Source: Dokdonia sp.
GTDB taxonomy: Bacteria; Bacteroidota; Bacteroidia; Flavobacteriales; Flavobacteriaceae
DNA length: 37,979 nucleotides
Assembly: GCA_020630915.1 (NCBI GenBank)
Contig: JAHDIF010000014.1
Coordinates: 1-37,979 of the forward strand
Reading direction: 5' to 3'
The notes beneath the pieces were generated by a model. The model was given only the letters and a program-made list of their open reading frames with translations. It was not told the origin of the DNA and did not search any database. Below, piece by piece: positions 1-1,877 of the stretch. How positions within the stretch are numbered: position 1 is the first letter of the stretch; every line of letters begins with the position of its first letter. The translations under genes were made by a program, and so were the position numbers.

Positions 1-2
1 TT

Positions 3-77
3 CGGGGTATAGCGTAGCCCGGTTATCGCGCCTGCTTTGGGAGCAGGAGGTCGCAAGTTCGAATCTTGCTACCCCGA
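3..77 (+). tRNA. tRNA-Pro (anticodon TGG)
   Basis: A complete cloverleaf can be folded. The acceptor CGGGGTA at 3-9 pairs with TACCCCG at 70-76, with discriminator A77. The anticodon stem CCTGC/GCAGG holds the loop TTTGGGA, which gives anticodon TGG (proline, CCA and wobble CCN codons). The T arm is GCAAG-TTCGAAT-CTTGC. The D stem has three firm pairs. CCA is not encoded. A strong hairpin terminator follows directly, and the 3' half of the gene recurs twice downstream at a 109 bp period. Confidence 0.96.
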
Positions 78-79
78 CT

Positions 80-116
80 TAAAAGAGCCTTGCTTTATGC
101 AGGGCTCTTTTGTTTT
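80..116 (+). terminator. Terminator of tRNA-Pro(TGG)
   Basis: A hairpin with stem AGAGCCTTGC / GCAGGGCTCT is flanked by A and T runs, three bases after the tRNA discriminator. It is copied with the tRNA 3' half in the downstream repeats, at 189-225 and, in changed form, at 299-335. Confidence 0.85.
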
Positions 117-298
117 ATTAAAGAGGGAATGTTTATCGCGTCCCGCTGCAGCGGGAAGGTCGCAAGTTCGAATCTTGCTACCCCGACTTAAAAGAGCCTT
201 GCTTTATGCAGGGCTCTTTTGTTTTATTAAAGAGGGAATGTTTATCGCGTCCCGCTGCAGCGGGAAGGTCGCAAGTTCGAATCTTGCTACCCCGACTT

Positions 299-335
299 AA
301 AAGAGCCTTGCAATTTGCGAGGCTCTTTTCTTTTT
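299..335 (+). terminator. Terminator of the last tRNA-derived repeat unit
   Basis: The stem AGAGCCTTGC / GCGAGGCTCT is followed by a T-rich run. It differs from the two upstream copies at loop and stem positions but still pairs. It lies just downstream of the convergent gene ending at 348 and may terminate on both strands. Confidence 0.7.
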
Positions 336-347
336 CAATTAATTGGA

Positions 348-794
348 TTATTCTAATCGTTTGTAACTCTCTCCATCAGTAGAGATTCCCTCGTTGTTTA
401 TGGCAATTTGTTGGTAGGAATTCTTGTCTATTATTAGCTCAAATCTAAATACTTGAGTAGTATCCACAATTTTCATCATAGGACCCGATGCATATTCTAA
501 GCGCTCTTCCAGAATGCCGTCTTTAATAGAATACGTTCCATAGCCAAACCATTCATTTGAGTCCGACGGGTCATTGCGCGTCCACATCACTTTGCCTTTG
601 CTATACATTTTAACCTGCCTGTAACCATTTTCGTTTTCTAATGTTTCTGTGAGTTTTCCATCTTCATACATCTGTTGGTTTACAAGTTCCCAGACTCCAT
701 GGAGTGAATCCTTTTCCTCTAGTTCTAATCTTCCATCACTCGTAAAGAGTGTAGCACTTATCAAATAAACACAGGTAATGAGTACTGTTTTCAT
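348..794 (-). CDS. Small exported protein, lipocalin-like (DUF4488-type) fold possible
   Basis: A 148-residue protein with an N-terminal hydrophobic segment (about residues 3-18) that should act as a signal peptide. The mature part opens with GVWELVNQQMYEDGK, followed by alternating strands such as QVKMYSKGKVMW and YGTYSIKDGIL. This pattern is seen in small Bacteroidota lipocalin-like proteins (DUF4488 and relatives). No catalytic motif is visible, so no function is assigned. It is a single gene, convergent with the tRNA-Pro(TGG) unit. No clear promoter was recognised upstream. Family placement is inference; that it is an expressed secreted protein is fairly likely. Confidence 0.7.
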   Translation of the reverse strand: MKTVLITCVYLISATLFTSDGRLELEEKDSLHGVWELVNQQMYEDGKLTETLENENGYRQVKMYSKGKVMWTRNDPSDSNEWFGYGTYSIKDGILEERLEYASGPMMKIVDTTQVFRFELIIDKNSYQQIAINNEGISTDGESYKRLE

Positions 795-954
795 AATACA
801 TTGATTTTGGTTTGAATGATATAAATACTGATTATCAGTTATTTAAGTTACGAAAAAATGAAGAACAAAACAGAATTATTCGATAAATTACATAGGATAT
901 ACCTTTTGATATACAAATGAAGAGGAGATGGGGCTAATTGTTAGGGTGTATGTT

Positions 955-988
955 AAAAAAGTGAAACAGACTATCTGCTTCACTTTTT
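955..988. terminator. Bidirectional hairpin terminator
   Basis: AAAAAGTGAA(G)CAGA pairs with its complement ending in CACTTTTT, leaving A- and T-runs on opposite sides. It ends the minus-strand transcript that contains tRNA-Pro(GGG) and its downstream repeat units. Between 795 and 954 I see only AT-rich sequence without a gene. Confidence 0.65.
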
Positions 989-995
989 AGTTTAG

Positions 996-1255
996 TCGGG
1001 ATAATAGGATTTAGAGAATCTCAATAAACCCTCTGTGCAAATAAAGCTTTGCTTTATTTAAAACAAAAGCCCTAGTTTTCTTAAGAAAGTAAACTTTCTA
1101 CAAAAACTAAAGCTTTTATTTAGTCGGGATGACAGGATTTAGAGAATCCTATTACATCGCTATTGTTGCAAATTAAAGCGTTGCTTTAATTTAACTTAAG
1201 CGCTTCGTTCTTTTAAGAAAATACATTTTCTACAAGAACTCTACGCTTTCGTTTG
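996..1255 (-). repeat. Two tandem units carrying the 3' end of tRNA-Pro(GGG) and covarying hairpins
   Basis: Units 996-1123 and 1124-1255 each begin (plus-strand view) with a copy of the tRNA-Pro(GGG) 3' end, TCGGGATGACAGGATTT, degenerate in the outer unit. Each continues with a short hairpin (1039-1059; 1170-1192) and a long three-tier hairpin (1065-1117; 1198-1248). The paired stretches differ between the units but stay complementary: AGTTTT/AAAACT versus GTTCTT/AAGAAC, and AGAAAGT/ACTTTCT versus AGAAAAT/ATTTTCT. The tRNA gene itself then starts at 1256, so the units lie downstream in its transcript. Confidence 0.85.
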
Positions 1256-1330
1256 TCGGGATGACAGGATTTGAACCTGCGACCACACGGCCCCCAGCCG
1301 TGTACGCTAACCGGACTGCGCCACATCCCG
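1256..1330 (-). tRNA. tRNA-Pro (anticodon GGG)
   Basis: On the minus strand a full cloverleaf forms. The acceptor CGGGATG pairs with CATCCCG, discriminator A. The anticodon stem CACGG/CCGTG holds the loop CTGGGGG, so the anticodon is GGG. The T arm is GCAGG-TTCAAAT-CCTGT (one G-T pair). It reads proline CCC/CCT codons and complements the TGG isoacceptor at the window start. CCA is not encoded. Confidence 0.95.
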
Positions 1331-1410
1331 AAAATTATTAAAATCTAACTGCTTGCAAGTTAGTCTGAGGTTTTACAACAATCACAGGTTTGCAAGTGGT
1401 GCAGTTTATC

Positions 1411-1438
1411 CTGAGCCTGTCGAAGGGCCACATCCCGA
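1411..1438 (-). repeat. REP-like element abutting a stray copy of the tRNA-Pro(GGG) 5' end
   Basis: CTGAGCCTGTCGAAGGG at 1411-1427 is a dispersed flavobacterial-type REP half-site; the complementary form occurs at 29565-29578. It touches GCCACATCCCGAA, an exact copy of the tRNA-Pro(GGG) 5' end that also lies at 1320-1332. Between them, complementary arms CTAACT/AGTTAG and CTTGCAA/TTGCAAG could fold. No gene is visible in 1331-1442. Confidence 0.6.
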
Positions 1439-1442
1439 ATTT

Positions 1443-1877
1443 TTAAGATTTTTCTACTTTTTTTACTTCTTCTTCCGTCACTAAAGTTTCACTAGTATTC
1501 CCCCAGTTGTTTAGAATATAGTTCATCACATCTGCAACCTCGTCGTCATACAGCCCTAGCTCTGCCATAACGCCATTGTATGTTTCACCGTTTACTTTGA
1601 TCTCTCCAGATTGTCCATATTTTACAACTCGTATAGCTTCTTTACGTTTTTCTGGTAGCAGCCAATCTGAATTTGCAAGCGGCGGGAAGGTGCCTTTTAC
1701 GCCTTCTCCTTGCCCTAGGTGGCATTGTATGCAGTACTCGGTATAAATTTCAGCTCCTCTTTTCATACTTTCTGTTAAAGGATCTTGAGAGGTAAGAACG
1801 TAGGCCTCTTTTTCTACTTTCGCGAAAGCAAAAAAAGACAGCACAACTGCACTTATTACTGTGATCATTAGCTTCAT
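1443..1877 (-). CDS. Class I c-type cytochrome, periplasmic
   Basis: A 144-residue exported cytochrome. An N-terminal signal peptide (about residues 1-19) is followed by one heme-binding site C49-I-Q-C52-H53, and Met104 in NGVMAELG is the probable second axial ligand. The C-terminal part (DDEVADVMNYILNNWGN) is the usual final helix of small diheme-type or cbb3-like cytochrome modules. Its ATG overlaps the stop of the upstream sugar dehydrogenase (TAATG, shared A at 1877), so the two are translationally coupled. It probably carries electrons from that dehydrogenase to the respiratory chain; the pairing is inference. The signal peptide's end is encoded by a TTTCGCGAAA palindrome (1818-1827, read as AFAK). 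Confidence 0.88.
   Translation of the reverse strand: MKLMITVISAVVLSFFAFAKVEKEAYVLTSQDPLTESMKRGAEIYTEYCIQCHLGQGEGVKGTFPPLANSDWLLPEKRKEAIRVVKYGQSGEIKVNGETYNGVMAELGLYDDEVADVMNYILNNWGNTSETLVTEEEVKKVEKS

Follow-up and report, generated by a model that had tools for sequence, protein, structure and literature searches.

Mobile DNA is well known to land in tRNA genes, and the sequence behind them is usually taken as a terminator or a scar. The tail of E. coli tyrT is made up of 178-bp repeats that hold the tRNA 3' end, together with the rtT RNA (Rfam family RtT). The tyrosine integrases of tRNA-targeting islands often cross over in the T-loop, and in integrons the attC sites are folded on one strand and recognised by the recombinase, with the cassettes standing in arrays. 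Displacement of tRNA 3' ends by integrative islands has been described (PMC4383910; PMC9897764). In the window analysed here, a stretch of 37,979 nucleotides from Dokdonia sp., a tRNA-Pro(GGG) gene is followed by two units that belong to a family of structured elements of the class Bacteroidia, which are found directly behind tRNA genes and on the tRNA strand.

Organisation of the tRNA-Pro(GGG) tail

The tRNA-Pro(GGG) gene lies on the minus strand at 1255-1330 (ARAGORN; Rfam RF00005, 61.6 bits), and the features of its tail are on the same strand. Each of the two units is built from two hairpins, the long P3 and the short P4, and a copy of the tRNA 3' end; a terminator-like hairpin comes after the second unit. 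In unit 1, which is of type II, P3 (1193-1253, drawn from the fold and aligned in the sets A1 and A3 described below) includes an outer stem, a 3x3 internal loop, a middle stem, a GU/UAA internal loop, an inner stem and a UGUA loop. It is followed by P4, AAATTAAAGC/GCTTTAATTT, at 1170-1192 (fold), a P5-like arm, AGGATTCTCT, at 1141-1150, and the first copy of the tRNA 3' end, AAATCCTGTCATCCCGAC, at 1123-1140 (repeat D2; copy start mapped). Unit 2 is of type I, a type also present in other genera, and its P3 (1061-1121, fold) has the GU/UAA internal loop and, as in type I generally, a broken U-rich arm; P4, AAATAAAGC/GCTTTATTT with one extra pair, is at 1038-1060 (fold), and the second, slightly decayed tRNA 3'-end copy, AAATCCTATTATCCCGAC, is at 995-1012 (D2). 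The start-to-start spacing of the tRNA 3' ends is 132 and 128 bp, and the two types differ at about a quarter of positions (repeat D1, 75%).

The preliminary description of tandem units with a tRNA 3'-end copy and two hairpins each was thus correct, and the four stem pairs named in it are all in the sequence as written, but AGAAAGT/ACTTTCT is not a full stem, since the fold gives six stem pairs plus loop letters. Its extent of 996-1255 requires adjustment to about 995-1254 for the units and their copies, and the terminator-like hairpin also belongs to the arrangement. This 15-bp hairpin, located 3' of the second copy at 956-988 (inverted repeat I1, fold z -6.7), is expected to be the transcript end. 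It was called by our own terminator rule (L001 271-293), which found no site within the units (L001), and was not reported by a generic terminator scanner, which gave no minus-strand site within window positions 1-1500. The units include no integrase gene and contain no ORF of ≥20 aa; the three ORFs listed there all cross unit borders.

The 305-nt tail folds to -101.3 kcal/mol, as compared with -55.0 (sd 4.9) for its shuffles (z -9.4), and none of 100 shuffles equalled it. When folded singly, unit 1 gave z -3.1 and unit 2 z -6.2, with none of 200 shuffles as good for either. For the whole predicted transcript (956-1330, minus strand), the minimum-energy fold keeps the normal tRNA; in the ensemble centroid, the 5' strand of the acceptor stem is paired with the tRNA-end copy furthest from the tRNA.

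The only Rfam matches in the window at gathering score were two tRNAs. The statement that no named family has this form holds for Rfam 15, in which no family matches the units beyond the tRNA, and the RtT model gave no match up to E=1 in window positions 900-1500, nor did it appear in further Rfam searches. Matches below threshold (Srn266, sX4, BTnc005, plastid models and others) lay far below the cut-offs and were dismissed as chance or tRNA overlap.

On the plus strand at 3-330, the contig starts with a tRNA-Pro(TGG), behind which stand two near-identical repeats of 109 bp. Both contain a terminator-like hairpin as well as two thirds of the tRNA, from its 3' side, in which the anticodon arm has been remade. 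Ahead of tRNA-Pro(GGG), in the minus-strand segment 1331-1439, a 13-base copy of the 5' end of this tRNA (1427-1439, repeat D3) adjoins CCTGAGCCTGTCGAAGG, which we take to be a common flavobacterial repeat.

A shared fold behind tRNA genes

A BLASTN search with the tail found one place in its own genome. Counting that genome, 2 of the 18 searched in the genus and 92 of the 397 in the family had matches; in the family search, two candidates were scored per genome, and the covariance-model searches (R1, R2) used stricter filters. Twenty-six of the 29 loci fetched from other genera (L005-L033) include a proline tRNA, either GGG or TGG, and in L013, L016 and L025 the units are displaced from their tRNA. 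Within the set gathered by similarity to the tail, the P3 core (TGTAG...) starts exactly 20 nt behind the tRNA in 18 of 19 core-bearing GGG tails, 18-22 nt behind it in 14 TGG tails and 18-19 nt behind it in two tRNA-Tyr tails, and this although the flanking stems differ in their letters; the core is absent from 8/27 GGG and 4/18 TGG tails. Of 18 genomes in the genus of the window, 13 of them with a completeness of at least 90%, four have a detected tRNA-Pro(GGG), and hence the tRNA gene itself comes and goes.

With up to one mismatch, the core pattern had 21 matches in 15 of 199 family genomes, and the reversed pattern had four. Eighteen of the 21 lie behind a tRNA gene, including the second unit of the window, which stands behind a tRNA-end copy; L038 is displaced, and L034 and L046, without a tRNA, look like chance matches. 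An exact scan of 84,980 GTDB species genomes gave 57 matches in 54 stretches, mostly in records titled Flavobacteriaceae or with genera of that family. A same-strand tRNA precedes 48 of these matches (26 Pro-TGG, 14 Pro-GGG, three Tyr, and one each of Arg-CCT, Ser-GCT, Phe, Pro-CGG and Ser-CGA), while seven of the other nine are behind a displaced proline tRNA end, L213 is behind a tRNA-like end and L223 is behind neither. L223, on a contig titled Planctomycetota, has the P3 core without a tRNA end and, elsewhere, a tRNA-Asn with a 3'-end copy; this would be a case of either mis-binning or transfer. The exact core had no match in the viral contig collection, on which ground a viral origin was rejected for this exact form; a more diverged phage form may exist.

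The covariance model for P3 (R1) matched 54 of 397 family genomes at E 0.01. Weaker matches place the P3 hairpin behind Ser, Val, Phe and Ala tRNAs, although a few of them look like chance; L137 and L139 are without a tRNA end, and in L124 the tRNA is on the opposite strand. The second model (R2) matched 38 of 395 class genomes, in 18 families by tool labels. Among 30 R2 loci, a same-strand tRNA lies within 40 nt in 18 and 129-752 nt upstream, in arrays, in five. Of the seven without one, four (L274, L276, L285 and L296) start from an apparent displaced tRNA end and L272 lies at the end of a contig, while no tRNA end is seen in L288 and L301. The further copies called for in the preliminary description were thus found behind many tRNA genes of Bacteroidia, including those for proline, serine, tyrosine, valine, arginine, histidine and phenylalanine. 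A1, A3 and a set of 204 tRNA tails were all collected for their resemblance to the tail and so do not yield rates for whole genomes.

Set A1 comprises 36 P3 hairpins, 34 of them from other genomes, and A3 comprises 33 more diverse ones. In A1, 85.4% of the cells pair, as compared with 72.0% after shuffling, the covariation score is 0.425 against 0.193, with none of 500 shuffles reaching it, and double changes occur at 19 of 26 pairs. The score for A3 is 0.593 against 0.196, again with no shuffle of 500 as high, and falls to about 0.27 when the partner is shifted by one column. The 702 Watson-Crick cells in A1 are accompanied by 97 G-U, 13 A-C and 124 other cells; given that 115.5 G-U and 43.5 A-C are expected from the shuffles, A-C is avoided and G-U hardly so.

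The tRNA-sense strand folds better than its reverse complement in all 51 non-redundant proline P3 hairpins (from 66), with 88 G-U pairs versus 6, and in 16 of 17 non-redundant P3 hairpins behind other tRNAs (from 19), with 25 versus 4. For proline P3+P4 stretches, the tRNA strand is better in 53 of 56 and the opposite strand in two. As the tRNA-sense strand folds better and tolerates G-U, one strand is selected, most simply as RNA, and a duplex palindrome does not fit because it would give no strand asymmetry in folding. Folded single-stranded DNA, or a C-to-T bias together with pairing, would also fit. Covariation and one-strand G-U tolerance together strongly support the earlier claim, based on two copies, that the structure is maintained.

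In the P3 internal loop of A3, which was chosen with the core in view, the 3' strand is UAA in 33/33 and the 5' strand GU in 29/33. Among wider class matches, UAA is kept in 30 of 39 and is mostly replaced by AAA or CAA in the remainder, and an invariant loop strand was therefore an overstatement.

Behind other tRNAs, a longer form is found, in which a four-way junction P1[P2 P3 P4]P1', starting with P1 right behind the tRNA, is followed by a linker, P5 and, often, a copy of that tRNA's 3' end. P2 carries a T run and resembles a terminator, P3 is not followed by a U run, and P5 resembles GGATCACGAG...GAGTAATCC. The proline tail of the window retains P3, P4, the P5-like arm and the tRNA-end copy, and is without P1 and P2. 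P1 strands pair with their own partners in runs of 10.96 bp on average, as compared with 6.74 (sd 0.20) for permuted partners (n=49). In minimum-energy folds of 25 tails, the four-way junction forms fully in L238 (tRNA-Ser) and largely in L056, L122, L136 and L190, whereas in L111, L134 and others the terminator form of P2 wins. Since the 5' arm of P1 doubles as the 5' arm of the P2 terminator, the two forms are partly exclusive; the position of the terminator-like P2 ahead of P3 should limit the P3 RNA in the four-way form.

Terminators were surveyed with our own rule in 68 proline tails with the core. A tRNA-end copy and a terminator occur together in 25 tails, and in every one of these the first copy precedes the first terminator. 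The distance from the start of a copy is at most about 45 nt in 19 tails and larger in six, and hence the unit and copy are mostly located between the tRNA and the terminator. In six of the 25, more than 60 nt separate the last copy from the terminator, which may be that of a later gene. A copy without a terminator was found in 12 of the 68 tails, and 31 have no copy; in one of the latter (L022), the rule calls a site inside P3. The suggestion of a structured noncoding RNA co-transcribed with the tRNA is thereby favoured, indirectly, by the order of copy and terminator.

Gain, loss and reordering of the units

The units behind tRNA-Pro(GGG) are of the two types I and II in differing orders. 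As read by eye, the order is II then I in the window and in G246 (L011), and I then II in G095 (L005). G401 (L023), from the same genus as G246, has only a type II unit, behind which come the terminator and flank of G246. The presence and absence of a unit between congeners, ahead of the same terminator, counts for cassettes. Given that the types are about a quarter different and occur in either order, they are not recent duplicates of each other.

Type I units are 92-95% identical among G000 (the genome of the window), G095, G259 and G118, in which third positions of gcvP are 40-45% identical. Over the 78 non-independent pairs of 13 genomes, compared at 105 unit bases and including one same-genus pair, unit identity and host identity are not correlated (rho 0.06, p 0.60). 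The species of the same-genus pair are 95.6% identical in gcvP, yet their units show a 9.5% difference, which means that the unit is not simply frozen. The region ahead of the tRNA gave no long match between G000 and G095, G259 or G118; a shared stretch of 46 bases at 83% was found for G276, and the upstream region is common to G095 and G118.

Of the partial tRNA copies, 28 are distinct; the start of 24 of them falls in the T-loop, 16-20 nt ahead of the tRNA end, and 14 of these start at 16. A 13-base tRNA-end copy within 330 nt was detected in 54 of the 204 collected tails, as compared with 0 and 3 in two controls. The idea of a recombination site array therefore stands in part, in that the units act as cassettes bounded by tRNA 3' ends with a preferred start in the T-loop. 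The copies fit integrase footprints, and the units are without the other features that define an island.

Forty-four arrays, in a list that includes some unrelated local repeats, contain units shortened at the 5' side, which start inside P3 or P4 behind a complete P5. Recombination from middle to middle (P5 with P3) was rejected, as the joints of the shortened copies, examined by eye, lie behind P5. L007 is an array of near-identical 101-bp repeats, and plain tandem duplication of 101 bp is enough to explain the array in G118. At least four near-identical units, with two pairs spaced 177-178 bp, stand behind tRNA-Ser(TGA) in G191 (L293, L311). A contig of G136 (L302 1-4977) carries a tRNA-Ser-like sequence that ARAGORN did not call and whose anticodon arm is odd; it has the same P3 as the true tRNA-Ser(TGA) at the opposite contig end. 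In G043 (L069 1021-6800), a 5.8-kb element with a 415-aa tyrosine integrase lies between tRNA-Pro(GGG) and a displaced unit, which identifies this tRNA gene as a landing site.

Explanations and comparison with known systems

We put at slightly better than even the chance that the units are a new family of tRNA-trailer RNAs carried as horizontally spreading cassettes. The units would be transcribed as a 3' extension of the tRNA precursor and freed as a structured small RNA by tRNA 3' processing. The conserved two-loop P3 hairpin would then be a protein-binding site, and extra units would raise the dose of this site. A cassette bringing its own tRNA 3' end could enter between the tRNA and the terminator and leave the tRNA unharmed, either through T-arm recombination by a tyrosine integrase acting in trans or through homologous exchange via the tRNA and its end copies. 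The RNA job, the transcription and the mover of the units are thus what we infer. Against this reading, the terminator-like P2 ahead of P3 should limit the P3 RNA, UAA is kept in only 30 of 39 wider matches, and the terminator site in L022 falls inside P3; furthermore, G-U tolerance and the GNA triloops of P4 (see below) are also compatible with DNA.

A broader version of the trailer-RNA reading is tentative and falls well short of an even chance. It holds that mobile, gene-free RNA cassettes occur across the class, with a four-way-junction RNA in the tRNA transcript, an own tRNA 3' end for harmless insertion and arrays that repeat the same P3 binding site. If this is true, they would represent an integron-like or SINE-like way of life for a structured RNA in bacteria.

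The strongest alternative, which we nevertheless regard as unlikely, is that RNA plays no part and that the units are gene-free DNA recombination cassettes, in which case a tyrosine recombinase would recognise one folded DNA strand and the tRNA T-arm would be the receiving site. The common T-loop start of the partial tRNA copies, half of them at the same base, the varying order of units between genomes and the unit displaced by the G043 element are as expected of such cassettes. GNA triloops, which are favoured by DNA, are found in 18 of 46 P4 and 1 of 46 P2 hairpins; as the P4/P5 finder was crude and misassigned some hairpins, this is a hint only. However, P2 has the look of a functional RNA terminator, tolerance of G-U pairs is most readily expected of RNA, the units are without a recombinase gene, their exact core is in no viral contig, and the shortened copies are not joined at the middle of P5. 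Tyrosine recombinases (PF00589) were found in 18/18 genomes and also in 14/14 controls, and are therefore uninformative as the mover.

It is less likely still that the hairpins serve as terminators or processing stems of the tRNA and grew in number as the tRNA end was tandemly duplicated, with likeness between genera due to homologous exchange at tRNA genes. This would account for the terminator-like P2, for near-identical arrays such as that in L007 and for the terminator repeats behind the other tRNA-Pro of the window (3-330). A terminator, however, has no need of the conserved internal loop or of a closing four-way junction, P3 of the four-way form lacks the U run, and the divergence of types I and II, in either order, speaks against recent duplication.

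A non-autonomous retroelement, a bacterial counterpart of SINEs in which a reverse transcriptase acting in trans would copy a tRNA-driven RNA into T-arm-like sites, would combine the tRNA promoter with a structured, gene-free RNA that spreads between genera, and the arrays shortened at the 5' side with the 3' part kept are of the kind that it should leave. We consider it very improbable, given that reverse transcriptase (PF00078) is present in 5 of 20 genomes searched, a set that includes G300, a carrier only by a short BLASTN match, and absent from that of the window; moreover, many of the shortened copies start from the top of P3 and not from its base, and they can equally be explained by tandem duplication. 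A REP-type element, a possibility named in the preliminary description, would be moved by a RAYT (Y1) transposase and would suit the short, hairpin-forming, intergenic and one-strand units; it is barely credible, as the tail has one place in its own genome rather than many scattered copies, its relatives are almost exclusively behind tRNA genes, and Y1 transposase (PF01797) is found in 8 of the same 20 genomes and not in that of the window (G000).

The family is real and structurally maintained, and apparently undescribed; an RNA function for it is proposed here. A literature search, mostly confined to papers available without subscription, found none on these tRNA tails and none devoted to rtT RNA, and the passages considered from PMC9723704 and PMC7366714 mention no tRNA-tail RNA.

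Like intrinsic tRNA terminators, the longer form has a P2 that resembles one, with the 5' arm of P1 pairing either in P2 or with the distal P1', but P3, P4, P5 and the tRNA-end copy are additional and conserved. Integron attC sites are likewise folded on one strand and belong to arrayed cassettes, whereas the cassette here is without a gene and sits behind tRNAs. The units share with tRNA-targeting integrative elements, for which tRNA-Pro(GGG) is a site in G043, a displaced tRNA 3' end that starts in the T-loop and marks the far end, with the intact tRNA restored; they differ in being 100-200 bp long and gene-free, with a conserved covarying fold and repeated arrays.

The nearest known thing is probably the tail of E. 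coli tyrT, in which tandem repeats behind a tRNA gene each hold about the last 18-19 tRNA bases and a structured trailer RNA is present. In contrast to it, the units have no match to RtT, occur behind many tRNAs and in a whole class of another phylum, and have a four-way junction with the P3 loops, a cassette order and a spread between genera. They are therefore laid out like the tyrT tail but are not placed as members of it, given the unmatched Rfam model and the differences in fold, range and spread. The tail itself is a conserved folded element behind many tRNAs that apparently moves between genera. If it acts as RNA, such tRNA transcripts yield a second structured product, and if it acts as DNA, it is a gene-free recombination cassette; either way, the long-standing puzzle of why there are tRNA-end repeats like those of E. 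coli tyrT can be tested on it.
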